Shown piece after piece: positions 1,910 to 19,136 of a stretch of 64,000 nucleotides of DNA (the stretch's first letter is position 1; every line of letters starts with the position of its first letter). Below the pieces are notes generated by a model, which saw only the letters and a program-made list of their open reading frames with translations, made no database searches and had not been told where the DNA came from. The position numbers and the translations under genes were made by a program. This DNA is from Streptomyces sp. NBC_01267 (GTDB lineage: Bacteria; Actinomycetota; Actinomycetes; Streptomycetales; Streptomycetaceae), in NCBI RefSeq assembly GCF_036241575.1, contig NZ_CP108455.1, positions 682,001-746,000 of the forward strand, read 5' to 3'.

Positions 1910-1935
1910 CCGTCCGTCCGATCGCGTTCGCCTGA

Positions 1936-1949: not shown

Positions 1950-2048
1950 AATTGTGTCGGCGAGTCTCCGCCCGTACCGGCCCGGTTGTCAACGGTGCGC
2001 GTGCCGACCGGCCCGACCGGTACCGTTCCGAGCACGAGGAGGAGACCG

Positions 2049-3725: not shown

Positions 3726-4856
3726 TCAGCGGGAACCTCCGGCGGTGGACGGCAGGGCAGCCTCCGCCGGGCTGTCGGCGAAGACCGGCCGGACAGGACC
3801 TGGTTCCGGCGTACGGGGTGCGGCAGCGGTGGACTCCCGGACCACCAGGCGCGGCCGGATGAGCAGGGACCGTCCGGCCGCGGGCGCCGACTCGATGCAG
3901 GCACGCAGTTGCTGGAAGGTCTCGGCCGCCATCTCGGGCAGTGGCTGACGGACCGTGGTGAGCGGCGGTTCGAAGAGGTCGGCGAGCAGGATGTCGTCGA
4001 AGCCGACCACCGAGATGTCGTGTCCGGCCCTGCGGCCCGCGTCCTTCGCCCCCCGGCAGATGCCGATCGCGCACATGTCGTTGATGGCGACGAACGCGGT
4101 GGGCGGACGGTCCCCGGTGAGGAGTTCCCGGGCGGCGTTCCGGCCCAGCTCGGCGGCGTCCTTGTCCCCGAACTCCGTGGTGACGGCTCCCGGCCACACC
4201 ACGGCGTCCCCGGGGTCGAGCCCGGCCGCCTCCAGCGCGGCGTGGAAGCCGCGCAGCCGTTCGCGGCGGTTGACGCTGTGCACGGAGCCCGAGACGAACG
4301 CCAGCCTGCGATGGCCGAGTTCGATCAGGTGACGGGTCGCCAGTTCGGCGCCCATCGCGTTGTCCACGCTGATACTGGCCAGCGAGGGCGGGTCGCCCGC
4401 CTGCGCGGTGCGGTCGAACGCGACCATCTTGAGGCCGCGGCTGAGCAGCGGAGTCACGTGGTCGAGCGTGGGCAGCGAGGAGCAGAGCACCACACCGCTC
4501 ACCCCGTCCGCGAGCAGTTCCTCCCCGTACTTCAGCTCACGCGCGGGATCACGCTCGCTGTTGCAGAGCAGTACGTGGTACCCGTCGGCGAGGGCGATGG
4601 CCTCCAACTCGCGGGCGAGTGAACCCCAGAAGGGGTTGGCGACCGACGGCACGATGAGGCCGATGACCTTGATCCGGCCGGTGCGCAGCATGCGGGCCGC
4701 GCGGTTGGGCCGGTAGCTGAGCCGTTCTATCGCCTGCTCCACGCGGGCGAGCGTCGTGGCCTGCATACGGTCCGTACGCCCGTTGAGGACGTTGGAGACC
4801 GTACTTGCGGAGACCCCTGCGGCCTCCGCGACCTGATGGATCGTTACCTGGCTCAT
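3726..4856 (-). CDS. LacI-family transcriptional repressor of the polysaccharide locus
   Basis: A 376-residue LacI/GalR regulator. The N-terminus VTIHQVAEAAGVSASTVSNVLNG is the classic LacI HTH with hinge helix (SYRPNRAARML), followed by a periplasmic-binding-protein-like sensor domain (VIGLIVPSVANPFWG; DILLADLFEPPLTTVRQP). The ATG at 4856 follows GGAGG and begins exactly at the HTH; longer forms to 5039 add unrelated residues through the operator region. It faces the sugar ABC/lyase operon and probably represses it until an oligosaccharide binds. The C-terminal tail after residue 340 is Pro/Ala-rich and unlike the fold. The stop lies 15 bases from that of the IclR gene (convergent). Confidence 0.92.
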   Translation of the reverse strand: MSQVTIHQVAEAAGVSASTVSNVLNGRTDRMQATTLARVEQAIERLSYRPNRAARMLRTGRIKVIGLIVPSVANPFWGSLARELEAIALADGYHVLLCNSERDPARELKYGEELLADGVSGVVLCSSLPTLDHVTPLLSRGLKMVAFDRTAQAGDPPSLASISVDNAMGAELATRHLIELGHRRLAFVSGSVHSVNRRERLRGFHAALEAAGLDPGDAVVWPGAVTTEFGDKDAAELGRNAARELLTGDRPPTAFVAINDMCAIGICRGAKDAGRRAGHDISVVGFDDILLADLFEPPLTTVRQPLPEMAAETFQQLRACIESAPAAGRSLLIRPRLVVRESTAAAPRTPEPGPVRPVFADSPAEAALPSTAGGSR

Positions 4857-4886
4857 GCCACCTCCGGTTCGGACCGCACTAGCGAA

Positions 4887-4904
4887 CTCAGTGTACCGAT
4901 TTAC
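4887..4904. promoter_or_regulatory. LacI operator candidate O1 (repressor side)
   Basis: CTCAGTGTACCGATTTAC is repeated almost exactly at 4992-5009 (CTCAGTGCATCGATTTAC, 16 of 18 identical). Both have a central CG within a partly symmetric AT-rich core, as LacI operators do. This copy lies 31 bases upstream of the lacI-family start and covers a leftward -10-like TACACT (complement of 4890-4895), so it may mediate autoregulation. Confidence 0.6.
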
Positions 4905-4963
4905 TGAACTCTCTTCACCGATACATCCGTTAACTTCCCTGAAAGATTCTTGCGTACCAGCTG

Positions 4964-4993
4964 TTGACGTCCCTCCGGAGACGTTCCTACTCT
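4964..4993 (+). promoter_or_regulatory. Promoter of the polysaccharide ABC/lyase operon
   Basis: TTGACG (4964-4969), an 18-base spacer and TACTCT (4988-4993) make a good SigA/HrdB-type promoter for the rightward operon. Its -10 box touches the operator candidate that starts at 4992, an arrangement that lets a LacI protein block transcription. Confidence 0.6.
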
Positions 4994-5009
4994 CAGTGCA
5001 TCGATTTAC
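4992..5009. promoter_or_regulatory. LacI operator candidate O2 (operon side)
   Basis: CTCAGTGCATCGATTTAC is the second copy of the 18-base repeat found at 4887-4904. The copies are 105 bases apart start to start, close to ten helical turns, which would suit DNA looping by a tetrameric or paired LacI repressor. It starts in the -10 box of the operon promoter. Confidence 0.6.
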
Positions 5010-5043
5010 AAGCACTTCCCAGCCATCTCTGGGGTGCAATGAC

Positions 5044-5055
5044 TGGATCGATCCA
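5044..5055. promoter_or_regulatory. 12-bp perfect palindrome in the leader of the ABC operon
   Basis: TGGATCGATCCA is perfectly symmetric around a central CG and sits about 28 bases before the binding-protein start. It could be a third regulator site or a leader hairpin. The CG-centred ATCGAT core is shared with the operator candidate at 4992-5009. Confidence 0.4.
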
Positions 5056-5082
5056 TCGCCTTCACCTCAAAAGGGGTGCCCC

Positions 5083-6348
5083 ATGGAACTCAGCAGACGA
5101 TCGATGCTCACTGTCATCGGCGCGGGGACCGCCGTCGCCCTCACCGGATGCGGCGCCGGCAGCACCACGGCCGGCTCGGCCGACGGCCCCGCCGAGGGCG
5201 AGATCACCCTCCTCACCCCGATCTACGAAGGATCCGACGGCAAGAAGCTCCTGGAGCAGGAGATCCTCGGCGGGTTCCGCAAGAAGCACCCGCGCGTCAA
5301 GGTCAACGTGGACTACACCACGTACACCCAGCTCAACGAGAAGATCACCACCGGCCTCGCGGGCGGGTTGCTGCCCGACGTCATGATGATGGGTGTCGGC
5401 TGGATCCCCCCGTTCGCCGCCAAGAAGGCGATCGCCCCGCTCCCGGAGGAGCTGGCCACCGCGCACGACTACCAGAAGCGGGTCCTGGAGCCGTCCCGCT
5501 ACGACGGCAAGCTGTACGCCCTGCCGGTCGTCCTCGACACCCGGATCGTCGTCTTCCGCAAGGACCACTTCGAGGCGGCCGGAATCCGGAAGACTCCGGC
5601 CAACTGGCAGGAACTCCGCGCGGTGGCGAAGCAGTTGACGGGGCACGGGCGAATCGGTTTCGACCCGTTCTCCATCGAACTGCGGCAGTGCTGGGAGGCG
5701 TTCCTGTACGCGAACGGCGGCTCGCTGTTCAGCGCGGACGGCAAGAAGGTGCGGTTCACCGACGCCCGCGGGGTAGAGGCGCTGCAGTTCTTCAAGGACC
5801 TGAGCGCCGACGGTTCCGCGGACTACACGAAGAAGACGGATCTCGGCGCCCCTACGAACATCCAGACCGGCAAGGCGTCGATGATGATGACGACCAGCGG
5901 GCTGTGGCACCAGCTGGAGGTCCAGAATCCGGAGCTCATCAAGGAGGACAAGGTCGGCGCGTTCATTCTCGCCAACCGCAGGCCCGCGATGCTCCAGGGC
6001 GGCACCCTCGTCACCCAGTCCGCCAGTTCCAAGCACCCGGCGGCGGCACGCGCCCTCGTCGAGTACCTCGCGACCCCCGATTCGGTCCTCGGCGCCGCCG
6101 AACAGCGCGGCTCGGTGCCCGGACTCAGCGATCTCGACGACTCCGGTTACGCCAAGGAGAACAAGTTCGTCGACATCTCGCTGAAGAACATGGGCTCCGC
6201 CTGTTCGGAGGGCGGCACCGCGGCCTGGATGGAGATCCGGGAAAAGATCAAGCCGACGCTGGAACCCGCCATCGTGGGCGGCCAGTCCGCGAAGGACGCC
6301 ATCGCGGAACTCGGCCGGCTCGCCGAAGCCGCCATCGGCCGGATGTAA
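5083..6348 (+). CDS. Extracellular sugar-binding lipoprotein of an ABC importer
   Basis: A 421-residue family 1 extracellular solute-binding protein. The N-terminus has a twin-arginine-like SRRSML followed by a hydrophobic stretch and the lipobox LTGC (Cys at about 24), so it should be a membrane-anchored lipoprotein. Mature sequence begins a typical binding-protein fold (ITLLTPIYEGSDG; GLLPDVMMMGVGW; PLPEELA). The ATG at 5083 sits directly on the signal sequence after AAGGGGTG. It heads the operon with two permeases just downstream (12-base gap) and no ATPase gene; streptomycete sugar importers usually share the MsiK ATPase. The lyases downstream suggest it binds unsaturated uronate oligosaccharides. 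Confidence 0.92.
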   Translation: MELSRRSMLTVIGAGTAVALTGCGAGSTTAGSADGPAEGEITLLTPIYEGSDGKKLLEQEILGGFRKKHPRVKVNVDYTTYTQLNEKITTGLAGGLLPDVMMMGVGWIPPFAAKKAIAPLPEELATAHDYQKRVLEPSRYDGKLYALPVVLDTRIVVFRKDHFEAAGIRKTPANWQELRAVAKQLTGHGRIGFDPFSIELRQCWEAFLYANGGSLFSADGKKVRFTDARGVEALQFFKDLSADGSADYTKKTDLGAPTNIQTGKASMMMTTSGLWHQLEVQNPELIKEDKVGAFILANRRPAMLQGGTLVTQSASSKHPAAARALVEYLATPDSVLGAAEQRGSVPGLSDLDDSGYAKENKFVDISLKNMGSACSEGGTAAWMEIREKIKPTLEPAIVGGQSAKDAIAELGRLAEAAIGRM

Positions 6349-6360
6349 GGACGCGTCACT

Positions 6361-7335
6361 GTGGGAGCAACGTCCGTACTGAAGGCACGGCCCACCCGGC
6401 CGCCTTCCCCGCCCGACGACACCGCGCCCCGGCGCACCCGGCGCGCCCGCCGCCCCCCGACGGGGCCGGGCCGCCGCCGGCGCCGCGCCGGAATGCTGAT
6501 GGTGGCGCCCGCGCTGCTGCACGCCTCACTCTGGATCGGTCTGCCGGTCCTCGCCTCGGTGGTGCTGGCCTTCACGAAGTACGACGTGCTGACCGCACCG
6601 CAGTTCGTGGGCCTGCAGAACTTCCGGGAGATGCTGGGCGACGCGGTCTTCCGCAAGTCCATCGTCAACACCGTCGTCTACACCTTCTTCACCGTGCCGT
6701 TCGGCATGGTGCTGGGGCTGCTGATGGCCCTGGCCCTGCACACCGGGCTCAAGGCCCGCGGCATCTTCCGCACCGCGGTCTTCCTGCCGCAGGTGACGGC
6801 CACGGTGGCCATCGCGCTGGTCTGGCTGTGGATCTACAAGCCGGACAACGGCCTCTTCAACACCCTGCTCTCGCTCGTCGGGATCAACGGTCCGGCCTGG
6901 CTGTCCTCGACGGCCTGGGCCATGCCCTCGGTCATCCTGGTCGGCATCTGGCAGGGCATCGGCATGAAGATGCTCATCTATCTGGCCGCGCTCCAGTCCC
7001 TGCCGAAGGAGCTGTACGAGGCGGCGTCGGTGGACGGCGCGTCCAGGGTGCGGCAGTTCTTCTCGATCACCCTGCCGCTGCTGAAACCCGCGACGTTCTT
7101 CGTGCTGATCACGTCGATGATCAACGCGTTCCAGGCCTTCGACCAGATCTACGTCCTGACCGACGGCGGTCCGGCCAACAGCACCACGATGATGACGTAC
7201 GAGATCTACAAGTCCGCCTTCCGGGAGTTCCGCGTCGGATACGCCAGCGCCCAGTCGCTGGTGCTCTTCGTCCTACTGATGGGCTTCACCCTGGTCAACC
7301 GGCGGATCATGGGAGGCACCCGTGGCCACAGTTGA
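6361..7335 (+). CDS. Sugar ABC transporter permease (MalF/UgpA type)
   Basis: A 324-residue inner-membrane permease. After a basic N-terminus (residues 1-40, rich in Arg/Pro) there are about six transmembrane helices beginning MLMVAPALLHASLWIGLPVL, and the EAA loop that contacts the ATPase (ELYEAASVDGASRVRQFFSI). TDGGPANSTTMM near residue 265 is typical of MalF-like sugar permeases. GTG start at 6361 lies 12 bases after the binding-protein stop. The 3' end overlaps the next permease by 14 bases, so the two are translationally coupled and likely form the heterodimeric channel. Confidence 0.92.
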   Translation: MGATSVLKARPTRPPSPPDDTAPRRTRRARRPPTGPGRRRRRAGMLMVAPALLHASLWIGLPVLASVVLAFTKYDVLTAPQFVGLQNFREMLGDAVFRKSIVNTVVYTFFTVPFGMVLGLLMALALHTGLKARGIFRTAVFLPQVTATVAIALVWLWIYKPDNGLFNTLLSLVGINGPAWLSSTAWAMPSVILVGIWQGIGMKMLIYLAALQSLPKELYEAASVDGASRVRQFFSITLPLLKPATFFVLITSMINAFQAFDQIYVLTDGGPANSTTMMTYEIYKSAFREFRVGYASAQSLVLFVLLMGFTLVNRRIMGGTRGHS

Positions 7336-8224
7336 GCTCCGCAAGCCGAAGGCGCGGGCCCGGAGGCCGGTCCCGGCCCGCCGGATCGCGCTCTACGCGA
7401 CGCTGAGCGCGATCTCGCTGCTGATGGTGGTGCCGTTCGTCTGGATGGTGCTCACCTCGCTGAAGAGCCCGGTGGAGATCGCCTCGCAGCATGCCGGACT
7501 GCTGCCGGAACACTGGCAGTTCAGCAATTACGCGGACGCGCTGAAGGCCGCGCCGTTCGCCACGTACGCCCGGAACAGTTTCATCATCGCGTTCAGCCAC
7601 ACCCTGCTCAATGTGGTGGTCGCGTCGATGGCCGGGTACGCCCTGGCGCGCATCAGGTTCCGCGGCAGCGAGACGATCTTCTACCTCTTCGTCGCCGCGC
7701 TGATGATCCCGACGTACACCAAGGTGCTGCCGGAGTTCCTGATCGTCCGCTTCATGCCGCTGGCCGGCGGGAACGACCTCTTCGGCCAGGGCGGCAGCGG
7801 CTGGCTGGACACCTGGTGGGCGCTGATCGTCCCGGGCGCCGTCACCCCGTTCGCCGTCTTCCTCTTCCGGCAGTTCTACCTGGACCTGCCGGTGGAGCTG
7901 GAGGAGGCGGCCAGGCTCGACGGGCTGAGCGAGTTCCGCATCTACGCCCAGATCATGACCCCGCAGGTCAAACCCGCCCTCACCACGGTGGCGCTGCTGA
8001 CCTTCGAGGCGTCGTGGAACAACTTCCTCTGGCCACTGCTGGTGACCCGCAGCGACAACCTCCGGGTGATCCAGGTGGGGCTCTCCGTCTTCAAGACGGA
8101 GAACGGCACCCAGTGGCAGTTCCTGATGGCCGGCACCACCCTGGCCACCCTTCCCATGGTCGTTCTCTTCCTCATCGGCCAGCGCTACTTCGTGCAGGGC
8201 TTCGCCACCGCCGGTCTCAAGTGA
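7322..8224 (+). CDS. Sugar ABC transporter permease (MalG type)
   Basis: A 300-residue permease with about six transmembrane helices. The first helix (ALYATLSAISLLMVVPFVWMVLTSLK) and the EAA motif (ELEEAARLDGLSEFRIYAQI) are those of MalG-type carbohydrate permeases. GTG start at 7322 lies inside the preceding permease gene. It ends 24 bases before the SDR gene. Together with the binding protein and a probable shared MsiK-type ATPase it completes the importer. Confidence 0.92.
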   Translation: MATVELRKPKARARRPVPARRIALYATLSAISLLMVVPFVWMVLTSLKSPVEIASQHAGLLPEHWQFSNYADALKAAPFATYARNSFIIAFSHTLLNVVVASMAGYALARIRFRGSETIFYLFVAALMIPTYTKVLPEFLIVRFMPLAGGNDLFGQGGSGWLDTWWALIVPGAVTPFAVFLFRQFYLDLPVELEEAARLDGLSEFRIYAQIMTPQVKPALTTVALLTFEASWNNFLWPLLVTRSDNLRVIQVGLSVFKTENGTQWQFLMAGTTLATLPMVVLFLIGQRYFVQGFATAGLK

Positions 8225-8248
8225 CCGGCTCCAGAAAGGGTTTCATCC

Positions 8249-9013
8249 ATGTCTGCTGATCTCAACGGCTCCCGCGCTCTGGTGACGGGAGCGGGCCACG
8301 GCATCGGCCGGGCCATCGCCGTCGCTCTTGCCGAGGCGGGCGCCGATGTGGCTGTCCACTACCACTCCTCCGGCGACGAAGCCGCGAAGACGGTCTCCGC
8401 GATCGAGGCGCTGGGCCGCCGCGCGAAGGCGTTCCGGGCGGACGTGACCGTCACCGCCGATGTGGACCAACTGGTGGACGAGGCGACCGGTTTCCTCGGC
8501 GGCCTGGACGTCCTGGTCTGCAACGCCGGTCATCTGATCGGCCGCGCGACGATCGCGGAGATGACGGACGCGCACTTCGACCAGGTCGTCTCCACCAATC
8601 TCAGCTCGACGTTCCGCACCTGCCGGGCCGCCCTGCCGCACCTCGCCCGGTCGTCGGCCGGCCGCATCATCACGATGTCCTCGCTCGCCGCGCACAACGG
8701 CGGCGGACCCGGCTCGGTGGCGTACGCCGCGGCCAAGGCGGGCGTACGGGGCTTCACCAAGGGGCTGGCCAAGGAGGTCGCCGGTGACGGGATCACCGTG
8801 AACGCGGTCGCGCCCGGCTTCATCAAGGGCACCGCGTTCCACGGCACGTTCACCGCGCCCGCCGCGCAGCAGGCCATGGAGGCGGGCATCCCGGTCGGCC
8901 GGGCCGGCACCCCCGAGGACGTCGCCGCCGCCGTGGTGCACCTGGCGTCCCCGGCGTCCGGATTCCTCACGGCCACCACGGTGGACATCGACGGTGGCGT
9001 ATGGCCCCGCTGA
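8249..9013 (+). CDS. Short-chain dehydrogenase/reductase, probable unsaturated-uronate (DEH-type) reductase
   Basis: A 254-residue classical SDR. It has the cofactor loop TGAGHGIG (about 12-19), NAG (about 91-93), the catalytic Ser in the MSSLAAHNGG block and the YAAAK active-site Tyr-Lys (about 156-160). In lyase-based uronate pathways an SDR reduces 4-deoxy-L-erythro-5-hexoseulose uronate to a 2-keto-3-deoxy acid; the position between a sugar importer and two heparinase-like lyases makes that role likely, but the sequence alone could also be a 3-oxoacyl-ACP-reductase-like enzyme. The stop overlaps the next gene by 13 bases. Confidence 0.8.
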   Translation: MSADLNGSRALVTGAGHGIGRAIAVALAEAGADVAVHYHSSGDEAAKTVSAIEALGRRAKAFRADVTVTADVDQLVDEATGFLGGLDVLVCNAGHLIGRATIAEMTDAHFDQVVSTNLSSTFRTCRAALPHLARSSAGRIITMSSLAAHNGGGPGSVAYAAAKAGVRGFTKGLAKEVAGDGITVNAVAPGFIKGTAFHGTFTAPAAQQAMEAGIPVGRAGTPEDVAAAVVHLASPASGFLTATTVDIDGGVWPR

Positions 9014-10788
9014 AAGGCATCGCCCGGGAGCGGGGCGGCTGGTGGCACGCGTACGTCTGTCCGGCGCACGGCGTGGAGCTCGACCACGGTGACCTGTTCA
9101 CCGGTGTCTTTCCCGAGGGCGGTGCGCGCTGCGCGCACGGCTGCCGGGTGGACGACGAGAAGGTGCGCGGCGCCTGGCTGGTGCTGTCGCACCAGGCGTG
9201 GGCGCGGCGGCTGCGGCTGCTCGCGCACCGCGGGGAGCGCACGGAGGCCGTCGCCCGGCTCACCGAGTACGCGGGGCTCTACGCGGAACTGGCGAGCGAC
9301 TCGCACGGCGAGGCCCAGGAATGGATGCTGCGCGGGCGCCTCTTCCACCAGGCGCTCACCGACGCGATCTGGGCGGTGAACATCGGGCACGCGGTCACCA
9401 CGCTGGCCGGGCAGCGCACGGACGACCTGGCCCCGCTGCTGCCGTTGCTCGACTCCCTGGAGCAGGCGGCGCTCGACGCCCGCGGGGTGCTCACCGGCCA
9501 GGGCCTCCTGGCGTCCAACTACACGGCCTGGCTGAACGCTGCGGGCGCCGCGACCGGTCCGGCGGCGGCCATGGTGCGCGGCCAGGAGTGGGACGGCGCG
9601 AAACAGTGGCTGGAGGGTGAGCACGGCCTGTACGCACACCTGCGGGTCGCCGTCGCGGACGACGGCTGGGAGTGGGAAGGCAGCACGTACTACCACGGGT
9701 TCGTGCTGCGTGCGGCGCTGCTGGCCCTGCGCTCCGCCGACCCCGCGGCCATCCCGTCCGACGTCGTGGGTGTCCTGGCGGGCATGACGGACGTCCTGGC
9801 GGCCATCGCCACCCCGGGAGGCATCCTGCCCGCCCTGCACGACGGCCCGTACCGACGGCACCCGCTCGCCCTGGAGTGGCTCGAACTGGTGGCACTGGCA
9901 CAGCAGTTGGTGCCGTCACCGGCGCTCGCCGCGGTCGCGACGCGGGCCAGGGCCGAGCTCGGCGCGCAGGACGACGGGCTCGACCGGGAGCTGGACGGCT
10001 GGTTCGCCGGGCCGCCACTGCCGGAGCGTCCCGGGCCCGGCGCCGTCACCGTCTTCCCGCAGACCGGCCATGCGGTGCTGCGCGCCGCCGGGATCCATGC
10101 GCTGCTGGACTTCGGCCCGCACGGCGGTTCGCACGGGCACCGCGACAAGTTGTCGCTGTATCTGTACGGGGACAGCACGCCGTGGCAGCCGGACCCCGGT
10201 CAAGTACCGTACGCACACCTGGAGTTCCGGGATCTGTACGCGTCGACCGAGGCCCATCCCGCCTTCCGCGTCGACGGCGCGGAGCAGGCCGAGTGCACGG
10301 GATCCCTACTCGGCACGGACGGCGCCTCGGTCACGGCCGAGGTGACCGAGGCGTACGAGGGGGTGCGCGCGGTGCGGCGGATCGCTGTCGGCGACTGCTA
10401 TCTGGTCGACCTGCTGACGGTGAGCGCCGCCGGTGAGCGCCGGATCACCGCCCAGCTGCGCCCCGGCACCGCGCTGGACATCCAGCTCCAGGCGGCGGGG
10501 CCGGTGCGCACCACCTGGTACGGCGACGAGACACTGCACGGCTGGCACACCGGTACACCGGGGGTGCCGGTACGTCCGGTGGCCGTGCCGGGTCCCGGCC
10601 CGGCCGACGATCCGCAGCGCACGTGCACCCGGGTGGACTTCACCGCCGGGGCGGAGCGCGTCACGTTCGCCTCGGTGTACCAGGCGGCTTCCGCGGGCCC
10701 CGCGGTCGCCGGCGTGCGGCTGGACGGTGACGTGCTGACGGTCGAGCTGGCCGACGGTTCCACCGCACGGTTCCGGACGGAGGGCTGA
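9001..10788 (+). CDS. Cytoplasmic heparinase II/III-family lyase, first copy
   Basis: A 595-residue protein without a signal peptide. The N-terminal two-thirds is an alpha-helical toroid; the C-terminal beta-sheet domain opens with GPHGGSHGHRDKLS (about residues 377-390), a heparinase II/III block with the conserved His pair and Asp. The start contains a Cys-rich patch (CPAHGVEL and CAHGC, about 20-45) that may bind zinc. Members of this clan (PL12, PL15, PL17, PL21 and relatives) cleave uronic acid-containing oligosaccharides by beta-elimination. Cytoplasmic location after an importer indicates action on imported oligomers, producing unsaturated uronate for the SDR. The exact PL family was not assignable by eye. 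The ATG at 9001 overlaps the SDR stop. Confidence 0.82.
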   Translation: MAPLKGIARERGGWWHAYVCPAHGVELDHGDLFTGVFPEGGARCAHGCRVDDEKVRGAWLVLSHQAWARRLRLLAHRGERTEAVARLTEYAGLYAELASDSHGEAQEWMLRGRLFHQALTDAIWAVNIGHAVTTLAGQRTDDLAPLLPLLDSLEQAALDARGVLTGQGLLASNYTAWLNAAGAATGPAAAMVRGQEWDGAKQWLEGEHGLYAHLRVAVADDGWEWEGSTYYHGFVLRAALLALRSADPAAIPSDVVGVLAGMTDVLAAIATPGGILPALHDGPYRRHPLALEWLELVALAQQLVPSPALAAVATRARAELGAQDDGLDRELDGWFAGPPLPERPGPGAVTVFPQTGHAVLRAAGIHALLDFGPHGGSHGHRDKLSLYLYGDSTPWQPDPGQVPYAHLEFRDLYASTEAHPAFRVDGAEQAECTGSLLGTDGASVTAEVTEAYEGVRAVRRIAVGDCYLVDLLTVSAAGERRITAQLRPGTALDIQLQAAGPVRTTWYGDETLHGWHTGTPGVPVRPVAVPGPGPADDPQRTCTRVDFTAGAERVTFASVYQAASAGPAVAGVRLDGDVLTVELADGSTARFRTEG

Positions 10789-10791
10789 CGC

Positions 10792-12768
10792 GTGCTGCTC
10801 TCGGCGACGCCGCCGCCCGGTCCGCGTCCCGCGCGGGAGGCGCGGCTGTACGAGGAGGCCGCCCGCCACCGCGGGCTGGCCCCGCCCACCGGGCACCCGT
10901 TGGCCAGCATCACCTGGCTGGGGCCGGCCGCGTCCAACCCCGCGCTGGCGTACCGCGTCGGCGGCGACCCCGCGCATCTCGCGGAGAGCCGGCGCTGGAT
11001 CGAGGCGGCGGTGCGGCTGCCGCACTGGGGCCGGGCCCATATGCCGGACCACGATCTGGACGCGGGCTGGCTGTTGCACCATCTCTCGCTCGCCCTCCGC
11101 TGGATCGGGGACGACCTGCCCGACGAGGTGCGCGCGCTGCTGCGGTACAAACTGCTGCTCCAGGGGCGGCGGTTGTACGAGTTCGCGGTGGCGAGCGAGG
11201 GGCGCTGGTGGTCGTCGTCGTACTGGCAGAACCACAACTGGATCTGCTACGCGGGCCTGGCCACCGCGGGTTACGTGCTCGGCAAGGAGGAGTGGACCCG
11301 GCGGGCCAAGGACAACCTCGGCCGGGTCCTCGATCTGCTGCCGGACGACGGCTCGCACGCCGAGGGGGTCGTCTACTGGCGCTACGGGGTGCCCTGGCTG
11401 GCGATCCACCTGGATCTGCTCCAGGAGGCCGAGGGCGTCGACTGGTGGGAGCGGGGCGGCTTCCTGTCCCGTACCTTCCGGTTCCGGCTGCACCAGACAG
11501 CGCCGGGCTTCGCGCTCAACGTGGACCACGGCGACTGCCACGACCGGCGCAGCGGGCACAGCGCCGGGCTGTACTACCGGCTCGCCGCGCGGTACGGCAT
11601 CGGCGAGGCGCAGTGGCTGGGCGATCTGGCTTCGGGTGAACTCCTCGCCCTGGAGGCCGCGGAGAGCGGGGTCCGGCCGGGGATCCTTCCGGAGGCGTAT
11701 CTGGAGTACCTCTGGTACGACCCGTCGGTGACCCCGGTCCGCCCGACCGAAACCCGGGCGTTCTTCCCGGACCTGGGCCTGCTGGCGGCCCGGACGGGCT
11801 GGGACGACGGTGCCACGCTGGTGTCGTTCAAGGCGAGTCCGGGTGGTGGCCACAAGGCGTGGGACACCGCTGCGGAACACCGGGCCGAGCTGGGCTGGGA
11901 CACCCTCGACCAGGGGCACCACCACCCCGATTCGGGGTCCTTCGTGCTGGTCTCGGAGGGTGCGTTCCTCGCGGTCGACGAGGGGTACAGCAACCGCAAG
12001 CGGGCCGCGCACCACAATCTGCTGCTGGTCGACGGGCAGGGGTACGCGGACGAGGACCGCTACCACGTCTACCAGGACATTCCCCACGAGCGGCAGGCCC
12101 GGCAGCGCGATGTGCTGGTGGCGGACCGCGGCTGGGCGCACGCCACGGCGGAGATCGCCGCGATGTACGACCCGGCACTCGGGGTGACCCGGCTCGACAG
12201 GACGCTGGTGTTCACCCCTGCGGGGCGGCTGGTGCTGCTGGACCTGGCCGAGGCGGACGGTGAGCGGGAGTGGACGTTCCTGCTCCAGAGCGACCGGCCG
12301 ACCGAGGCCCTGCCGGACGGCACCCGGCTGATCCGGTCGGGTGAAGTCACCGCGCACGTACGGCAGTTCGCGCCTCCTGATGCCACGGTGACCTCGGAGG
12401 TGACGGAGGTCGCCGCGAACCCGACGTCCAGCACACCGGGGCTGGAACTCACCCGCACCCTGCACACCCTGCGGTCGTCGACCGCGCGCACCGCGTCGGG
12501 GCTGTTCCTCACCACGATCGAGCCGGGTGCGGCCCGGTCGGCCGAAGCCGTGCCGTGCGACGCCGGACACGGTGTGGCCTTCGCGGGCGAGACCGTGCTC
12601 CTCTCCCCCGCCGCCCGCCGGATCCGTACCTCCCGGGTGGTGGCCGACGCGGCGGCCGTGCTGCTCGCCGACGGCGCGGCGCCGTACGTGGTCGCCGCCC
12701 GGCGGGTGGAGCTGGACGGCCGGGTGCTGCTCGACCGTGCGGAGCCGTACACAGGAAGGGTCGGCTGA
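10792..12768 (+). CDS. Cytoplasmic heparinase II/III-family lyase, second copy
   Basis: A 658-residue protein, also without a signal peptide. Its C-terminal beta domain has GHHHPDSGSFVL (about residues 382-393) followed by FLAVDEGYSNRK and HHNLLLVDGQGY, the usual heparinase II/III signature with a catalytic His and a structural His/Asp set. The N-terminal helical domain has SSSYWQNHNWICYAG (about 140-155), containing the Asn/His of the active cleft. It differs strongly from the preceding paralogue, so the two probably cut different linkages or chain ends. GTG start at 10792, 3 bases after the previous stop and 3 bases before the next start, so part of the coupled operon. Confidence 0.85.
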   Translation: MLLSATPPPGPRPAREARLYEEAARHRGLAPPTGHPLASITWLGPAASNPALAYRVGGDPAHLAESRRWIEAAVRLPHWGRAHMPDHDLDAGWLLHHLSLALRWIGDDLPDEVRALLRYKLLLQGRRLYEFAVASEGRWWSSSYWQNHNWICYAGLATAGYVLGKEEWTRRAKDNLGRVLDLLPDDGSHAEGVVYWRYGVPWLAIHLDLLQEAEGVDWWERGGFLSRTFRFRLHQTAPGFALNVDHGDCHDRRSGHSAGLYYRLAARYGIGEAQWLGDLASGELLALEAAESGVRPGILPEAYLEYLWYDPSVTPVRPTETRAFFPDLGLLAARTGWDDGATLVSFKASPGGGHKAWDTAAEHRAELGWDTLDQGHHHPDSGSFVLVSEGAFLAVDEGYSNRKRAAHHNLLLVDGQGYADEDRYHVYQDIPHERQARQRDVLVADRGWAHATAEIAAMYDPALGVTRLDRTLVFTPAGRLVLLDLAEADGEREWTFLLQSDRPTEALPDGTRLIRSGEVTAHVRQFAPPDATVTSEVTEVAANPTSSTPGLELTRTLHTLRSSTARTASGLFLTTIEPGAARSAEAVPCDAGHGVAFAGETVLLSPAARRIRTSRVVADAAAVLLADGAAPYVVAARRVELDGRVLLDRAEPYTGRVG

Positions 12769-12771
12769 ATC

Positions 12772-13407
12772 ATGCAGGCACGTCTCTCGTCCAGCTGGCC
12801 GACGCTGCTGCGCCGGCTGGAGTTCCTCGCCTACCCGGCGGCCGGCGGGGCCGCGTTCGTCGTGCTGTCGCTCGGTGTGGTGACCTGGCTCCCCGCGCTG
12901 GCGGCTATGGCGTACGGGCTCCAGCGGTGGCGCGCGGAGGGTGACAGCCGGTGCTTCGTCAACGCCTTCACCGCGTTCCCCCGGTACTGGCGCGCCCTGT
13001 GGCGGCACGCGCTGGTGTCCACGGTCGTCGCGGGCATGCTGACGGCCAACATCCTTCATGTGCTGGGCCGTTCCGAGCCCTGGACGTTCGTGGTGCTCGC
13101 CGCGCAGATGGGCATCGCCGCGGCGGCCGTCATCCACCATGTGGCGCTCGCGGCCGAGGCGGGCCGGGTGCCCGGCGGGACGGTCAGCACGTGGACCCGG
13201 GGCGCGCTCGCGCTCGGCTTCGGGTCGGCCGCGCGTGGTACCGCGCTGCTCGGCGCGGTGGTCTCCGCCGTGCTCCTCTCCCTCGTCGTGCCGCTGGGAC
13301 CGCTGCTGCTCGGCCCCAGCATTCCCGTACTGCTCGCCCTGTCCTTCGCCGACGGACTCACCGACCGGCTCACCGACCGGCTCACCGACAACAGGAGGCA
13401 CATCTGA
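12772..13407 (+). CDS. YesL/DUF624-like integral membrane protein
   Basis: A 211-residue protein with four to five hydrophobic helices (about 20-45, 85-105, 115-135, 160-200). The layout FLAYPAAGGAAFVVLSLGVVTWLPAL then FTAFPRYWRALWRHALV resembles YesL/DUF624 proteins, which accompany sugar ABC permeases and lyases in pectin and other glycan loci; their biochemical role is not settled. The ATG at 12772 follows AAGGGTCGG. The C-terminus GLTDRLTDRLTDN is encoded by a 12-base direct repeat. Its stop overlaps the next ATG (TGATG). Confidence 0.75.
   Translation: MQARLSSSWPTLLRRLEFLAYPAAGGAAFVVLSLGVVTWLPALAAMAYGLQRWRAEGDSRCFVNAFTAFPRYWRALWRHALVSTVVAGMLTANILHVLGRSEPWTFVVLAAQMGIAAAAVIHHVALAAEAGRVPGGTVSTWTRGALALGFGSAARGTALLGAVVSAVLLSLVVPLGPLLLGPSIPVLLALSFADGLTDRLTDRLTDNRRHI
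13357..13389 (+). repeat. 12-bp direct repeat (2.75 copies) in the 3' end of the YesL-like gene
   Basis: CTCACCGACCGG occurs at 13357, 13369 and (partial) 13381. It encodes LTDR-LTDR-LTD at the protein's C-terminus, just before the ribosome site of the next gene. Copy-number change would keep the frame. Confidence 0.85.
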
Positions 13408-14486
13408 TGCACCGCTTACTGCGCACCACCCTGGTCGCGGCACTCGCCGCCGGCGGGGCGCTCGCGTTCCCGCTGCCGTCCACGGCCGCCGATACCGCGA
13501 CCGCGTACTACGTCTCGCCGTCCGGCAGCGACAGCAACTCCGGTACGTCGGCGGGCGCCCCGCTCGCCACGATCCAGCGAGCGGTGCATCTGGCGCCGAC
13601 GGGCGCGGTGGTACACCTCGCGGCCGGTACCTACCGGCAGGACGTGGTGACCGAGCGCGCCGGCGTCACCCTCACCGGCCCCTCCGACGCCGTGGTCAAG
13701 GGCGCCGGGGACAGCAGGATCATCCAGGTGCGGCACGACTCGGTGACGCTGAGCGGCTTCACCGTCGACGGACTGCACGGCTCCGCCGACACCGTGTCGG
13801 GCTACCGGGCCAAGCTGGTCTACGCGATGAGCACCACCCCGGGCAACGGTGTGGGCGCGCTGCACCTCACCGGTATGACACTCAAGAACGCGGCGGACGA
13901 ATGCGTACGGCTGCGCTATCTCGTCACCGGCGCCGACATCTCCGGCAACACCATCAGCAACTGCGGTGTCAACGACTTCAGGTTCGGCGGCGGCGGGAAG
14001 AACGGCGAGGGCATCTACCTCGGCACCGCCCCCGAGCAGCAGGGAGCCAACGGCGCGCCCGACGCCGCCCCCGACATCAGCCGGAACAACCGCATCCACG
14101 ACAACACCATCGCCACCCACGGCAACGAGTGCGTCGACATCAAGGAGAACTCGACGCACAACTACGTCGAGCACAACGACTGCAGCGCCCAGCAGGACCC
14201 CGGTTCGGGCGGGCTCGACGCGCGCGGCAGCGGCAACATCCTCCGGTACAACACCCTGCACGACAACGTCGGTTCGGGTATCAGGCTCGGCGGCGACACC
14301 GCGACCGACGGCACCGGGACCAGCGTGTACGGCAACACCATCACCGGGAACGCCGGCGGCGGGATCAAGTTCATGCAGACCCCGCAGGGCCCGGTGTGCG
14401 CCAACACCATGAGCGGCAACACCGGCGGGGACGCGGTCGGCACCTACGGCAGCGCGTACCTGCCGACCGGCGCGTGCCCGCAGTGA
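13407..14486 (+). CDS. Secreted right-handed beta-helix protein, possible polysaccharide lyase; carries a TTA codon
   Basis: A 359-residue protein with a signal peptide (about 1-29, cut after TAADT-like region) and a right-handed parallel beta-helix beginning YYVSPSGSDSNSG, a common start of secreted pectate-lyase-fold enzymes. About ten helix coils carry the repeating N-x-I pattern. The segment CVDIKENSTHNYVEHN followed by GGLDARGSGNILRYN resembles the PL6 arrangement in which Lys and Arg on neighbouring coils catalyse elimination, so I suspect a lyase, but a non-PL6 beta-helix enzyme is possible. Codon 4 is TTA (13416-13418), the only in-frame TTA noticed in the window; in Streptomyces this makes translation depend on the bldA tRNA. 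AGGAGG at 13393-13398 precedes the ATG, which overlaps the upstream stop. Confidence 0.78.
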   Translation: MHRLLRTTLVAALAAGGALAFPLPSTAADTATAYYVSPSGSDSNSGTSAGAPLATIQRAVHLAPTGAVVHLAAGTYRQDVVTERAGVTLTGPSDAVVKGAGDSRIIQVRHDSVTLSGFTVDGLHGSADTVSGYRAKLVYAMSTTPGNGVGALHLTGMTLKNAADECVRLRYLVTGADISGNTISNCGVNDFRFGGGGKNGEGIYLGTAPEQQGANGAPDAAPDISRNNRIHDNTIATHGNECVDIKENSTHNYVEHNDCSAQQDPGSGGLDARGSGNILRYNTLHDNVGSGIRLGGDTATDGTGTSVYGNTITGNAGGGIKFMQTPQGPVCANTMSGNTGGDAVGTYGSAYLPTGACPQ

Positions 14487-15625
14487 CCGGGCGGGGACCC
14501 GCGAGACGCGGGGTGCTGACGGCGGCGGCCTCACTGGCAGCGGTCGCCGCCACGACGACCGGCGCGCGGGCGGCGGAGCCCGGGGAGCGCCGCTCCGGCT
14601 GGACGGTCTCCTGGGCCACGGCGCAGACCGCGCCGATGGAGGCCGACACGGTGGCGAGCAAGGGCCTGACGAACGGTGTCTTCCGTGCCACGGTCCGGCT
14701 GTCGGCCGGCGGCGGGGTACGGCTGCGCTACGGACACGCCTTCGGCTCCGTACCGGTCCTCATCGGCCCGGTCACGGCGGGCGGGCGCCCGGTGACCTTC
14801 GGCGGGCGGCGGCAGGCCTGGCTGGCCGCCGGTGCCTCGCTGACCAGCGATCCGGTCGACGGCCTCCGGACCGCCGAGGGCGCCGCGCTCACCGTCGAGA
14901 CCCGACTGCCCGGCCCCACCGGGCCGTTGTCCTTCCACCGCAACACCCATGCCACGCACACGGTCGACGGCGTACCCACCACCTCGGTGTTCCTGCTGAC
15001 CGGCGTCGAGGTGACCGGTGCGCACGGGCCGGTCGTCGCGGTGCTCGGCGACTCCATCACCGAGGGCGTCGGCACCCCGGACGACGCCGATCTGCGCTGG
15101 CCCGACCAGCTGGCGAGGCGGCTGCCCGGTTCGGCCGTCGCCAACCTCGGGGTCAGCGGCAACCGGCTGCTGCTGGACGACGTCAAGTTCGGCCCCGGCG
15201 GGCAGTCCAGGTTCGACCGCGACGTGCGGTCGCTGCCGGGGCTGCGCACCCTGGTCATCGCCCTCGGGGTCAACGACCTCCAGCAAGCGCCCTCCCAGAC
15301 CGATCCGGCGCTCTTCCTCGCGGCCTACCGGCAGCTGGCGCTGCGGGCGCGCGACGCGGGTCTGCGGGTGGTCGGCGCCACCGTCACCCCGTTCGGCGGC
15401 TGGACCCGCTGGACACCGGAGCTCGAAACGGTCCGGGGCAGCGTCAACCGGGCGGTACGCACGGGGCGGATCTTCGACGCCGTGGCCGACTTCGACACCG
15501 CGCTGCGCGACCCCGCGAACCCGTCACGGATCCTGCCCGCCTTCGACAGCGGTGACGGTCTGCACCCCAATCCATCCGGTCATGCCGCGCTCGCCGCGGC
15601 CGTCGACCGCCGTCACCTCCTGTGA
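14483..15625 (+). CDS. Secreted SGNH/GDSL-type carbohydrate esterase
   Basis: A 380-residue exported hydrolase. The start is a GTG at 14483 that shares bases with the previous stop (GTGA). A Tat-like leader (ARRGVLTAAASLAAVAATT) ends near residue 33. Four SGNH blocks are visible: GDSITEG (about 188, nucleophile Ser), SGNR (about 226, Asn), GVND (about 261, oxyanion Asn) and DGLHPN (about 357, Asp and His). A beta-rich N-terminal domain (about 40-180) precedes it, as in SGNH proteins that remove acetyl groups from polysaccharides. In this locus it probably deacetylates the substrate before or during lyase attack. Confidence 0.85.
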   Translation: MTGRGPARRGVLTAAASLAAVAATTTGARAAEPGERRSGWTVSWATAQTAPMEADTVASKGLTNGVFRATVRLSAGGGVRLRYGHAFGSVPVLIGPVTAGGRPVTFGGRRQAWLAAGASLTSDPVDGLRTAEGAALTVETRLPGPTGPLSFHRNTHATHTVDGVPTTSVFLLTGVEVTGAHGPVVAVLGDSITEGVGTPDDADLRWPDQLARRLPGSAVANLGVSGNRLLLDDVKFGPGGQSRFDRDVRSLPGLRTLVIALGVNDLQQAPSQTDPALFLAAYRQLALRARDAGLRVVGATVTPFGGWTRWTPELETVRGSVNRAVRTGRIFDAVADFDTALRDPANPSRILPAFDSGDGLHPNPSGHAALAAAVDRRHLL

Positions 15626-15633
15626 GGGCCACC

Positions 15634-18030
15634 ATGAACCGAGGCACCACCAGGCGCACCGTCCTCGCCGGAGCGGCAGCGGTCGGCGCGGCCGTCGCGC
15701 TGCCGGTCACGTTCGCGTCCGCCCCGGCGCGGGCGGCGACCGGTGACGCGGCGGCGCTGCGCTCCCGCTGGCACACCCTGCTGACCGGCGGCCCGGATCT
15801 GGACCTGACGGACCCGCAGATCGCGGCGGCCGTCGCCCGGATCGGCAAGGCGGCCACCACCGCCGCGGCCGGGCTCGATCCGACGCGCACCGACGGCCTG
15901 TTCCCCGACCTGACCGGCACGACGCTCTCCAACCAGGTGACGACCGCGTTCAAGCGGCTCGCGACGATCGCGACCGCCTGGGCCGTCCCCGGCACCCCGC
16001 AGCACGGCGACACGGCGCTCCGCGATCTGCTGCTCGCCGGGGTCGACTGGATGCTGGCCCATCGCTACGGGCCGGGGCATGCCCGGTACGACAACGACTG
16101 GGACTGGGAGATCGGCTCGGCGCTCGCCCTCAACGACGCGTCGGTGCTGCTGTACGACGTACTCGGTACGGACCGGCTGACCCGGATCACCACAGCGGTG
16201 CGGGACTACACCCCGGACCCGAATCTGTGGCGGGCCGACCGGCAGATCGCGACCGGTGCCAACCGGGTGTGGGTGTCCACCGTGGTGGCCGTCCACGCGG
16301 TGCTGCGGGACGACGGCGACGATCTCGGCCGGGTGCGCGACGCTCTTTCGGACGTCGAGGGTTCCGGCGCCAACAGCGTGCTGGCCTTCAACGACGTGAG
16401 CGCGGCGGCGGAGGGCACCGGGGAGGGGTTCTACTCCGACGGTTCGTTCCTCCAGCACTACAAGCACCCGTACAACGGCGGCTACGGCAAGGAGCTGCTG
16501 AACAATCTCTCCCGGCTGCTGAATCTGCTCGCCGGTACCAACTGGTCGGTCACCGATCCCGATCTGGACAACGTCCGCGGCTGGGTCGACGAAGGGTTCG
16601 ACCCGCTGATCGCCCGTGGCGATGTGATGGCCTCGGTCTGCGGGCGCGAGATCGCCCGGCCCAGCAAACAGGGGCATGTGTCGGCCCAGACCGTCATCGA
16701 GGCGGTGGTACGTCTCGTTCCCACCTTCCCCGGTGCGACCGCCGACCGGTTCACCGCTCTGGTCAAGCAGTGGATCGCCGAGGACACCTACCGGGACTTC
16801 CTGGCCGTGACCGACCTGGCCTCGCTCGTCGCCGCCCGGCAGGTCATCGCCTCCGCGATCCCGGCGCGCGGCCGGCTGGTCGGCCACAAGCAGCACCCGC
16901 GGATGGACAAGGCGGCGCACCACCGGCCGTCGTTCGCCCTGGGCATCTCCGCGTACTCGACACGCGTCTACAACTACGAGTCGATCCAGAACGAGAACCT
17001 GCACGGCTGGCACCTCTCCGACGGCATGGTGCTGCTGTACACCGACGACCTCGGTCACTACAGCGAGGACTACTGGCCCACGGTCGACCCGGCGCGGCTG
17101 CCCGGTACCACCGTCGTCGCGGGCCGCCCCGCGGACGCGGCCGGACAGCGCACCACCAGTACGTCGGACTGGGCGGGCGGGACCGCGCTGCCCGGGACGA
17201 CGCTCGGCGCGTACGGCATGGAGCTGCGCGCGTACGGCTCCACGCTCACCGGGCTCAAGAGCTGGTTCTGCCTGGACGATGTGATCGCCTGCGTCGGCTC
17301 GGGCATCTCGGCCGGCGCGGGCACCGTCGAGACGGTCGTGGAGAACCGCAAACTGCGCGATCCGAAGGCGGCGCTGCTCGTCAACGGGGAGCCGGCCGCC
17401 ACCGACGCGGGCTGGTCGGCGGAGCTCGGCGAGGTGCGCTGGCTGCATCTGGAGGGGACCGGCGGTTATGTGTTCCCGCGGGCCGCGACCGTGCGGGCGC
17501 TGCGGGAGGAACGTACGGCGACCTGGCGCGAGATCAACACCAAGTACGGCACGGACACCCCGGTGACGCGGCCGTACCTGACGCTGTGGCAGGACCACGG
17601 GACGACTCCGGACGGTGCGGGGTACTTCTGGCTCCAGGCCCCGGCCGCCTCGGCCGAGCGCACCGAACTCTGGTCGGACGCGCCGCCGGTCGAGCTGGTC
17701 GCCGCCTCCACCGCGGTCCACGCGGTGCGGCGCCCGACGGACGGGCTGCTCGCCGCGAACTTCTGGACCGCGGGCACCGCGCAGGACCTCGCGTCGGACG
17801 GCGCCGCGTCGGTGCTCGTACGGCCGGAGGGCAGCACGGTCACCGTCTCGCTCTCCGATCCCACCCAGCTGCGTTCCTCCGTCGTCCTCGATCTGGCGCA
17901 GCGCGGTCTCACGGTCGTCTCCGCCGATCCCGGGGTGCGGACAGCGCCCACCACGGAGGGCATCCGGATCACCGCCGACACCTCGGGCCGCCATGGCGCG
18001 CCCCTCGGTCTCACCCTGAAGAGGAGCTAG
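15634..18030 (+). CDS. Secreted PL8-family polysaccharide lyase (hyaluronate/chondroitin AC/xanthan lyase type)
   Basis: About 798 residues with a Tat signal (TRRTVLAGAAAVG; cleavage near ARA-ATG). The helical domain contains DNDWDWEIG (about 150-158), TGANRVW (about 206; catalytic Asn), SFLQHYKHPYNGGYG (about 270-285; catalytic His and Tyr) and GREIAR (about 335; Arg), the order found in PL8 lyases. A beta-sandwich domain with NENLHGWHLSDGM follows. PL8 enzymes cleave hyaluronan, chondroitin or xanthan by beta-elimination. ATG at 15634 follows GTGAGGG; an in-frame GTG at 15622 that overlaps the SGNH stop is an alternative start. This is the main extracellular depolymerase of the locus. Confidence 0.92.
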   Translation: MNRGTTRRTVLAGAAAVGAAVALPVTFASAPARAATGDAAALRSRWHTLLTGGPDLDLTDPQIAAAVARIGKAATTAAAGLDPTRTDGLFPDLTGTTLSNQVTTAFKRLATIATAWAVPGTPQHGDTALRDLLLAGVDWMLAHRYGPGHARYDNDWDWEIGSALALNDASVLLYDVLGTDRLTRITTAVRDYTPDPNLWRADRQIATGANRVWVSTVVAVHAVLRDDGDDLGRVRDALSDVEGSGANSVLAFNDVSAAAEGTGEGFYSDGSFLQHYKHPYNGGYGKELLNNLSRLLNLLAGTNWSVTDPDLDNVRGWVDEGFDPLIARGDVMASVCGREIARPSKQGHVSAQTVIEAVVRLVPTFPGATADRFTALVKQWIAEDTYRDFLAVTDLASLVAARQVIASAIPARGRLVGHKQHPRMDKAAHHRPSFALGISAYSTRVYNYESIQNENLHGWHLSDGMVLLYTDDLGHYSEDYWPTVDPARLPGTTVVAGRPADAAGQRTTSTSDWAGGTALPGTTLGAYGMELRAYGSTLTGLKSWFCLDDVIACVGSGISAGAGTVETVVENRKLRDPKAALLVNGEPAATDAGWSAELGEVRWLHLEGTGGYVFPRAATVRALREERTATWREINTKYGTDTPVTRPYLTLWQDHGTTPDGAGYFWLQAPAASAERTELWSDAPPVELVAASTAVHAVRRPTDGLLAANFWTAGTAQDLASDGAASVLVRPEGSTVTVSLSDPTQLRSSVVLDLAQRGLTVVSADPGVRTAPTTEGIRITADTSGRHGAPLGLTLKRS

Positions 18031-18034
18031 ACCC

Positions 18035-19009
18035 TTGCTGTTCGACATGGAGCTGGAACGGTTGCGCGAGTACCGTCCCGAGCCGCAGGAACCGGCGGAC
18101 TTCGACGCCTTCTGGGACAGGACGCTCACCGAGGCGGCCCGCTGTCCCCTGGGCGCGGAGTTCGTTCCGTACGACGCCGGGTTCGCGACCGTCGACGTGT
18201 TCGACGTGACGTTCGGCGGCTGGGGCGGGCAGCCGGTCAAGGCCTGGCTGCTGCTGCCCCGCGGCCGTGCCGAGCCGCTGCCCGCCGTGGTGCAGTACAT
18301 CGGCTACAACGGCGGCCGGGGCGTCCCGTACTCCTGGCTGACCTGGAGCGCCCTCGGCTACGCCCATCTGGTGATGGACAACCGGGGCCAGGGCGGCGGC
18401 GGCAAGCTGACCGCCGACACCCCGGACATCGGCCCCGACGGTCACGGTTCGTCGTCCCCCGGTTTCCTCACCCGTGGCATCGAGAACCCGGACCTGCACT
18501 ACTACCGGCGTCTGATCACCGACGCGGTCCGTGCGGTGGACGCGGCGAAGGCGCATCCGGCCGTCGACGCCACCCGGGTCGCGGTGCTCGGCGGAAGCCA
18601 GGGCGGCGGGCTGTCACTGGCGGTGGCCGGGCTGCGGGACGACGTGGTGGCGGCCGTCGCCGACGTGCCGTTCCTCTGTCACTACCGGCGCGCCTCACAG
18701 ATCACCGACTCGGGTCCGTACGCGGAGATCGCCCGGTGGCTCTCCGGGCACCGGTTCCGGATCGAGGAGGCGATGGAGACGCTCTCGTACTTCGACGGGG
18801 TCAACTTCGCGGCGCGGGCGACCGTCCCCGGGTGGTTCTCGGTGGGGCTGATGGACAGGGTCTGCCCGTCGTCGACGGTCTTCGCGGCGTACCACCGCTA
18901 TGCGGGTCCGGCCGAGATCGAGGTGTTCCCGTACAACGGCCACGAGGGCGGTGCCGAGTACGACCTTCCGCGCAAGATAGCGGCGTTGCGCGGGGTGTTC
19001 GACCAGTAG
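18035..19009 (+). CDS. CE7-family acetylesterase / cephalosporin-C-deacetylase-like
   Basis: A 324-residue alpha/beta hydrolase with no signal peptide. It shows the CE7 motifs: RGQ (in MDNRGQGGGG, about 113), GGSQGGG nucleophile elbow (Ser at about 187), MDRVCPS (Asp at about 272) and NGHEGG (His at about 302). Length matches acetyl xylan esterases of CE7, which remove acetyl groups from oligosaccharides in the cytoplasm. The TTG at 18035 is preceded by GAGGAG at 8 bases and is preferred; an ATG at 18047 is possible. It is the last gene of the operon (4-base gap after the PL8 gene) and pairs with the secreted SGNH esterase to give deacetylation on both sides of the membrane. Confidence 0.88.
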   Translation: MLFDMELERLREYRPEPQEPADFDAFWDRTLTEAARCPLGAEFVPYDAGFATVDVFDVTFGGWGGQPVKAWLLLPRGRAEPLPAVVQYIGYNGGRGVPYSWLTWSALGYAHLVMDNRGQGGGGKLTADTPDIGPDGHGSSSPGFLTRGIENPDLHYYRRLITDAVRAVDAAKAHPAVDATRVAVLGGSQGGGLSLAVAGLRDDVVAAVADVPFLCHYRRASQITDSGPYAEIARWLSGHRFRIEEAMETLSYFDGVNFAARATVPGWFSVGLMDRVCPSSTVFAAYHRYAGPAEIEVFPYNGHEGGAEYDLPRKIAALRGVFDQ

Positions 19010-19136
19010 CCGCCTCCCTGTCGTACGTTTTCATACAGATCGTGGTTTCTTGCGTGGACTCATGGACTGCCTGCGGCCCGACTTCTAGCCTTTCGGCGTC
19101 CGCAGAGTTCCTCACGAGCCGCAAGGACGTACGTCT

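Follow-up and report, generated by a model that had tools for sequence, protein, structure and literature searches.

The question raised by this locus is which glycan it consumes and by what route the products reach central metabolism. The window, meaning the whole 64,000-nucleotide stretch of DNA that was analysed, corresponds to positions 682001-746000 of an 8.07-Mb Streptomyces genome. It is proposed with good confidence that the locus is an operon under LacI control by which alginate is consumed, most likely a mannuronate-rich, O-acetylated alginate of bacterial origin. At the level of sequence, the proposal is based on which genes are present, how they are arranged and linked, the operator-like sites and a PL8 that falls in the clade of a published alginate lyase, and from these we infer the enzyme activities in the window's strain, the acetylation of the substrate and the inducer. 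The genes named in an initial annotation (LacI, importer, SDR, two heparinase-like proteins, YesL-like protein, beta-helix protein, SGNH, PL8 and CE7) are all present, as judged by Pfam and, for HepB, by model fold. The features are as follows.

3726..4856, minus strand: LacI-family repressor (Pfam LacI and Peripla_BP_3; start ATG at 4856)
4892-4904 and 4997-5009, no strand assigned: two exact TGYAYCGATTTAC operator-like sites in the LacI-SBP gap, the candidate LacI operator site having the form TGCATCGATTTAC
near 4918-4930: third, weaker reverse copy of the operator-like site
5083..6348, plus strand: sugar ABC solute-binding lipoprotein, SBP (Pfam SBP_bac_1)
6361..7335, plus strand: ABC permease 1 (Pfam BPD_transp_1)
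7322..8224, plus strand: ABC permease 2 (Pfam BPD_transp_1)
8249..9013, plus strand: SDR, proposed DEH reductase (Pfam adh_short)
9001..10788, plus strand: HepA, candidate cytoplasmic PL17-like oligo-alginate lyase (Hepar_II_III_C, E 2.7e-15; profile and fold)
10792..12768, plus strand: HepB, predicted cytoplasmic heparinase-fold lyase, PL15/PL35/DSE-like (profile, model fold)
12772..13407, plus strand: YesL-like membrane protein (Pfam DUF624, 26.7 bits against a cut-off of 24.2)
13407..14486, plus strand: secreted right-handed beta-helix protein (DUF1565)
14483..15625, plus strand: secreted SGNH/GDSL esterase, proposed extracellular deacetylase (Pfam Lipase_GDSL_2)
15622..18030, plus strand: secreted PL8 lyase of the Aly16-1 clade (all three PL8 domains)
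18035..19009, plus strand: CE7 esterase, proposed intracellular deacetylase (Pfam AXE1, E 3.4e-104)

Each of the eleven genes from SBP (5083) to CE7 (19009) either overlaps the next or is separated from it by 3-24 bp, and the LacI gene is divergent, oriented away from them. Exact copies of TGYAYCGATTTAC occur in the genome only at the two positions between LacI and SBP. Two one-mismatch sites are found elsewhere, one of which adjoins another sugar importer. A looser operator-like site was observed in the LacI-SBP gap of 65 of 90 related loci, a set in which some genomes are present twice and loci are not independent, giving 166 sites compared with 0.38 on average after single-base shuffling, a control that overstates the contrast. 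None was observed in this gap in the Kribbella loci of that set. Across 80 named loci (1.63 Mb), 90 of 100 operator-like sites fall at the LacI-SBP gap. The concentration of sites at this position and the tight packing of the genes make a single LacI-controlled unit from SBP to CE7 a well supported reading of the sequence, in line with the initial annotation. LacI, importer, SDR, HepA, HepB, YesL, PL8 and CE7 are arranged as in the window in 16 of 18 fetched Streptomyces relatives. A promoter scan of 4800-19300 returned no sigma-70-like site; with only 0.3 expected by chance, this carries little weight. Around position 956 of L109 and L110 (both Isoptericola), an operator-like palindrome lies upstream of another gene, which in L110 encodes an F5/8-type and pectate-lyase-like beta-helix protein and is a possible further member of the regulon.

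For the genome searches, scores were obtained only for candidates from a loose first look, and counts refer to the matches listed. On this basis, HepB was present in 19 of the 295 Streptomyces genomes sampled. The beta-helix and SGNH genes are also in place in 14 of the 18 fetched relatives; both are missing from L024, and SGNH from L039, in an otherwise ordered cassette. L040 contains the core and the beta-helix gene without PL8 or CE7, while L041 (genome G057) carries at about 5700-9400 a decayed copy, with HepB broken into two separate matches and no match for the transporter, HepA, PL8 or CE7. The locus L047 (Streptomyces sp. A 4/2) is near-identical to that of the window. Judged by these sequence comparisons, conservation of the cassette is well beyond chance. 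A gene for a secreted alpha-1,3-glucanase-like protein (CatAgl_D1/D2; window 19137-21044, plus strand) starts 128 bp past CE7; it is kept only in L024 (91%) among the 18 fetched relatives and only in L047 among the 80 named loci, and is outside the conserved cassette. Those 80 loci, taken into the comparisons from 167 confirmed in a scan of named genomes, span Streptomyces, Kribbella, Micromonosporaceae, Salinibacterium, Isoptericola, Plantibacter, other actinobacteria and one Chloroflexi bin. Of the 70 loci of at least 19 kb, 68 contain every gene of the core (LacI, SBP, both permeases, SDR, HepA and HepB), and the secreted parts vary. It should be noted that related loci share kinship, and Fisher p values therefore overstate. 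In L097, L098 and L103, a large secreted-looking protein of about 1300 aa with fibronectin-III domains (about 12540-16600, plus strand), in which a heparinase-like part is recognised by eye, directly follows YesL or HepB and replaces PL7/PL8.

By eye, Sec/Tat-like leaders are present at the start of the beta-helix, SGNH and PL8 proteins and absent from the start of HepA, HepB and CE7, which agrees with the two tiers of lyase, outside and inside, suggested earlier. Regarding the inner tier, PL17 alginate lyases rank first in the profile search with HepA, and they also occupy Foldseek rows 1-8 for its model (pLDDT 92.4), row nine being heparinase III. HepA is called PL17-like only, because in one weak profile alignment to 8bdd Tyr174, after Asn173, stands where PL17 has its catalytic His (His202 of Alg17c). 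HepB gave no Pfam match at E 0.001 (Hepar_II_III_C at E 0.018); its database entry (P0001) carries DUF4962, and its model displays the heparinase fold. In the profile ranking, dermatan-sulfate epimerase is first and the PL15 oligo-alginate lyase Atu3025 second; in Foldseek, Atu3025 is at the top with dermatan-sulfate epimerase nearly tied; by VIA, dermatan-sulfate epimerase, heparinase II, PL39 and PL35 stand above PL15 by small margins. His148, Tyr195 and His376 of HepB, invariant in 22 sequences, align with His311, Tyr365 and His531 of Atu3025, functional residues of PL15.

The SDR contains TGAGHGIG and YAAAK, corresponding to the TGxxxGxG and Ser-Tyr-Lys motifs common to SDRs at large. It scores 183.2 bits against NCBIfam KduD, well short of the cut-off of 338.85, and lies just above the cut-off of one FabG subfamily (224.9 vs 222). 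Its PDB matches include DEH reductase A1-R' at about 147 bits, under several FabG-type rows. The SDR sequence alone is generic, and its assignment as a DEH reductase is proposed from context. Among bacteria, the DEH reductase is often an SDR (PMC8778563), and DHU, formed from glucuronate or galacturonate, requires an isomerase (KduI or DhuI) that is usually clustered with the reductase (PMC12838403). Pfam annotation of the operon genes revealed no such isomerase, and the SDR is read as a DEH reductase for this reason. A single PF04962 (KduI) match is present in the window's genome, by eye inside an inositol-like cluster; 9 of 18 genomes with related loci also have a match, among which inositol enzymes may be included, and these matches are given no weight here.

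The neighbours of the core in related loci are also informative. PL7 is a neighbour of the core in 11 of the 80 named loci, in none of which PL8 is present; for the 70 long loci, PL7 occurs in 0 of 32 with PL8 and 9 of 38 without. A KDPG aldolase gene adjoins a KDG-kinase-like PfkB gene in nine of the 80 (L066, L073, L077, L078, L079, L081, L111, L120 and L121), L066 being a PL8-type Streptomyces locus. Within the stretch examined, PL7 and the aldolase-kinase pair are both missing from most loci that lack PL8. The window's genome has no PL7; depletion of PL7 in PL8-type genomes was considered and is not significant (1/17 vs 72/278, Fisher p 0.08, in a test that ignores kinship). The position of the core beside PL7 and the aldolase-kinase pair, the PL17-like character of HepA and the lack of an isomerase fit alginate, processed from oligo-alginate through DEH to KDG. 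An acetylated glucuronan is an improbable substrate by comparison. Similar lyases could serve it, GlcA and ManA differing only at C2, and fungal enzymes of PL7 subfamily 4 cleave glucuronan as lyases (PMC7911691); its product DHU, however, would have to be isomerised by KduI or DhuI ahead of the reductase step (PMC12838403), neither of which is in the operon, and the linked PL7 of L081 (Alginate_lyase2) scores 420 bits against polyguluronate lyase 1UAI and only 29 bits against the solved glucuronan lyase.

Returning to alginate, KDG kinase and KDPG aldolase are both absent from the window's operon, as had been pointed out in the initial annotation, which expected the route to join central metabolism elsewhere. 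Candidates do exist in the genome: three KDPG-aldolase-family genes were found, one adjoining a PfkB kinase near 6.84 Mb, with identities to their linked counterparts in relatives of 39-46% for the aldolases and 29-40% for the kinase. The KDG route can thus be completed outside the locus.

In the secreted PL8, the catalytic residues Asn, His, Tyr and Arg are present (N214, H279, Y288 and R342), and they are kept in 32 of 32 linked PL8 rows compared; 7 of 13 outside rows were left out of this comparison (six wrong strand, one broken frame). Among the matches listed, 223 of 295 Streptomyces genomes have a PL8 match and only 17 the clade of the window's PL8, all 17 belonging to the 19 HepB genomes. 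Members of the Streptomyces clade are 74-100% identical, with the next listed match at 43% or less. In Kribbella, again among the matches listed, the clade is found in 12 of 38 genomes (83-100% to L085), with HepB within about 3.5 kb of the PL8 in all 12 by listed coordinates, and three more genomes have HepB without the clade PL8. In the sampled genomes of both genera, this PL8 clade is met only together with the core. In a tree of 23 PL8 rows, from which L153 and L161 were dropped for stops, the eight locus rows group on a single branch (100/100), whose join to XalA was flagged as a possible long-branch effect.

An enzyme of this kind has been described. Aly16-1 from Streptomyces sp. CB16 is an endolytic, M-preferring PL8 alginate lyase, which also cuts HA, CS-A, CS-C, CS-E and xanthan, and weakly HS/DS (PMC11596371), so that PL8 activity on alginate is already in print. 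Its published primers have 0 and 1 mismatches to the PL8 gene of L063 (S. anulatus JCM 4721), which is 2418 bp long and encodes a protein of 85,273 Da, compared with the published 2418 bp and about 85.3 kDa; the pI values are 6.4 (computed) and 6.1 (published). Judged by primers, gene length and mass of this match, Aly16-1 probably belongs to the window's PL8 clade. The L063 PL8 is 79.7% identical to that of the window, and L063 holds the whole cassette; Aly16-1 would thus have its counterpart in a window-type cassette, whereas it was described as a single enzyme, the term 'gene cluster' occurring 0 times in the available text (PMC11596371). A further PL8 that acts on polymannuronate is PsMan8A, a fungal exo-poly-M lyase of PL8 subfamily 4 (PMC7911691). 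The two proteins are, however, very distant. The window's PL8 scores only 45 bits against PDB 7r2x (Mannuronic acid specific lyase), which we take to be PsMan8A.

The affinities of the PL8 bring two further polymers into consideration. Its top PDB match is a xanthan lyase at 471.7 bits, chondroitin AC lyase reaching 351.6, and xanthan is an acetylated polymer; in a locus for xanthan or xanthan-like side chains, PL8 would remove the terminal mannose and the esterases the acetyl groups. Aly16-1 has some xanthan activity (PMC11596371), and carbohydrate esterases are present in known xanthan loci (PMC10881899). This reading is nevertheless very unlikely: it would leave two further uronate lyases without work, no gene for a xanthanase, GH88, mannosidase or glucosidase lies in the operon, and alginate is the polymer on which the published clade member acts in particular (PMC11596371). 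The one GH88-family gene of the genome lies about 6 Mb off, and tblastn with that single query found none in the 80 loci. The residues around the substrate point in the same direction. Of Arg313, Tyr315 and Arg612 in XalA, presumably the pyruvyl-mannose contacts, the Arg is kept in the window's PL8 and Ser348 and Lys641 replace the other two; the Ser and Lys are found in 31 of 32 linked PL8 rows, the exception being one of the PL8 proteins of L083, a second and distant one.

PL8 and heparinase folds are typical of glycosaminoglycan lyases, and HepB resembles DSE and PL35. Aly16-1 also cleaves HA and CS (PMC11596371). A locus for hyaluronan or chondroitin is, however, hardly probable, since the operon has no hexosaminidase, GH88 or isomerase, PL7 alginate lyase occurs in related loci, and the genome holds a separate PL8, distant from the locus, that scores 1219 bits against 2WCO, the chondroitin AC lyase of S. 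coelicolor. Some points do count against the alginate reading, namely that Aly16-1 is not alginate-specific, that HepA has Tyr174, that HepB resembles dermatan-sulfate epimerase and that the SDR is generic. The uronate-containing glycan of the initial annotation is nonetheless best narrowed to alginate.

The esterases bear on acetylation. CE7 (top PDB match 1vlq, an acetyl xylan esterase, 394.6 bits) is present in 32 of 32 long loci with PL8 and 3 of 38 without, and SGNH in 26 of 32 and 1 of 38, respectively. Linkage of both esterases to PL8 suggests that the PL8 variant is likely to have its niche on O-acetylated bacterial alginate. Azotobacter and Pseudomonas make such alginate. From esterase linkage alone, an acetylated natural substrate is slightly favoured, and this part of the earlier claim is only probable. 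Mannuronate in bacterial alginate can be O-acetylated, which shields it from most alginate lyases (PMC4444821). In an enzyme of Pseudomonas syringae, an SGNH deacetylase module is fused to a mannuronan epimerase (PMC4444821); the window likewise pairs SGNH with a beta-helix protein, in two overlapping but separate genes instead of one protein. The beta-helix family has Pfam matches to DUF1565, Beta_helix and NosD, with weak Pel9A-like matches in 6 of 10 members. An AlgE/AlgG-type epimerase was considered for this protein and rejected, as DPHD, which we take to be the motif of such epimerases, is absent from the alignment. That the operon is dedicated to O-acetylated bacterial alginate, with SGNH and the beta-helix protein unmasking or opening the chain, PL8 cutting it and CE7 finishing deacetylation inside, is a tentative proposal, to which we give a little less than an even chance. 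If it is true, soil actinobacteria gain a polymer that acetylation protects from most alginate lyases.

The following route is proposed. Outside the cell, SGNH would strip acetyl groups and the chain would be cleaved by PL8, perhaps together with the beta-helix protein; the ABC importer would take up the unsaturated oligosaccharides. Inside, CE7 may remove leftover acetyl groups, while HepA and HepB would trim the oligosaccharides to unsaturated monouronate, which gives DEH. The SDR would reduce DEH to KDG, which would be processed further by a KDG kinase and a KDPG aldolase whose genes lie elsewhere. The extracellular lyase, cytoplasmic oligo-alginate lyases, SDR and KDG of this route are shared with bacterial alginate loci that hold PL7, PL15/PL17, DEH reductase, KDG kinase and KDPG aldolase, and a CE20 esterase is also listed for the alginate PUL of B. 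eggerthii (PMC11381880). The window differs in that PL8 replaces PL7, CE7 and SGNH are added, LacI and an ABC importer are used, and the kinase and aldolase lie outside. The locus is most likely an actinobacterial alginate operon in which the place of the relatives' PL7 is taken by an Aly16-1-type PL8 and two esterases.

The suggestion in the initial annotation that the two esterases and the SDR point to a substrate beyond the textbook pathways was overstated, as the core adjoins PL7, aldolase and KDG-kinase-like genes in relatives and Aly16-1 appears to share the PL8 clade. The SDR fits a DEH reductase, a textbook alginate step; outside the textbook lie the PL8 at the front of the pathway and the pair of esterases linked to it. 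Neither the operon assignment nor the acetyl-alginate prediction turned up in searches of the open-licence PMC literature for actinobacterial alginate operons and acetyl-alginate degradation. On the alginate reading, a recently described multifunctional PL8 enzyme gains a place in a genome and a likely role in physiology, occupying the position that PL7 has in relatives, before an otherwise ordinary alginate pathway. It is predicted that soil Streptomyces can eat acetylated alginate, and the esterases and lyases would serve as tools to break down or analyse this polymer.

Elsewhere in the window, a tandem IclR-family ORF with two HTH and two C-terminal domains (1689-3710, plus strand) is located near a CoA-transferase subunit (519-1154, minus strand), surroundings that look like an unrelated aromatic-catabolism neighbourhood. 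At 37008-39443 (plus strand), a right-handed beta-helix is fused to an AAA ATPase with an AAA lid, an unusual architecture unrelated to the locus.
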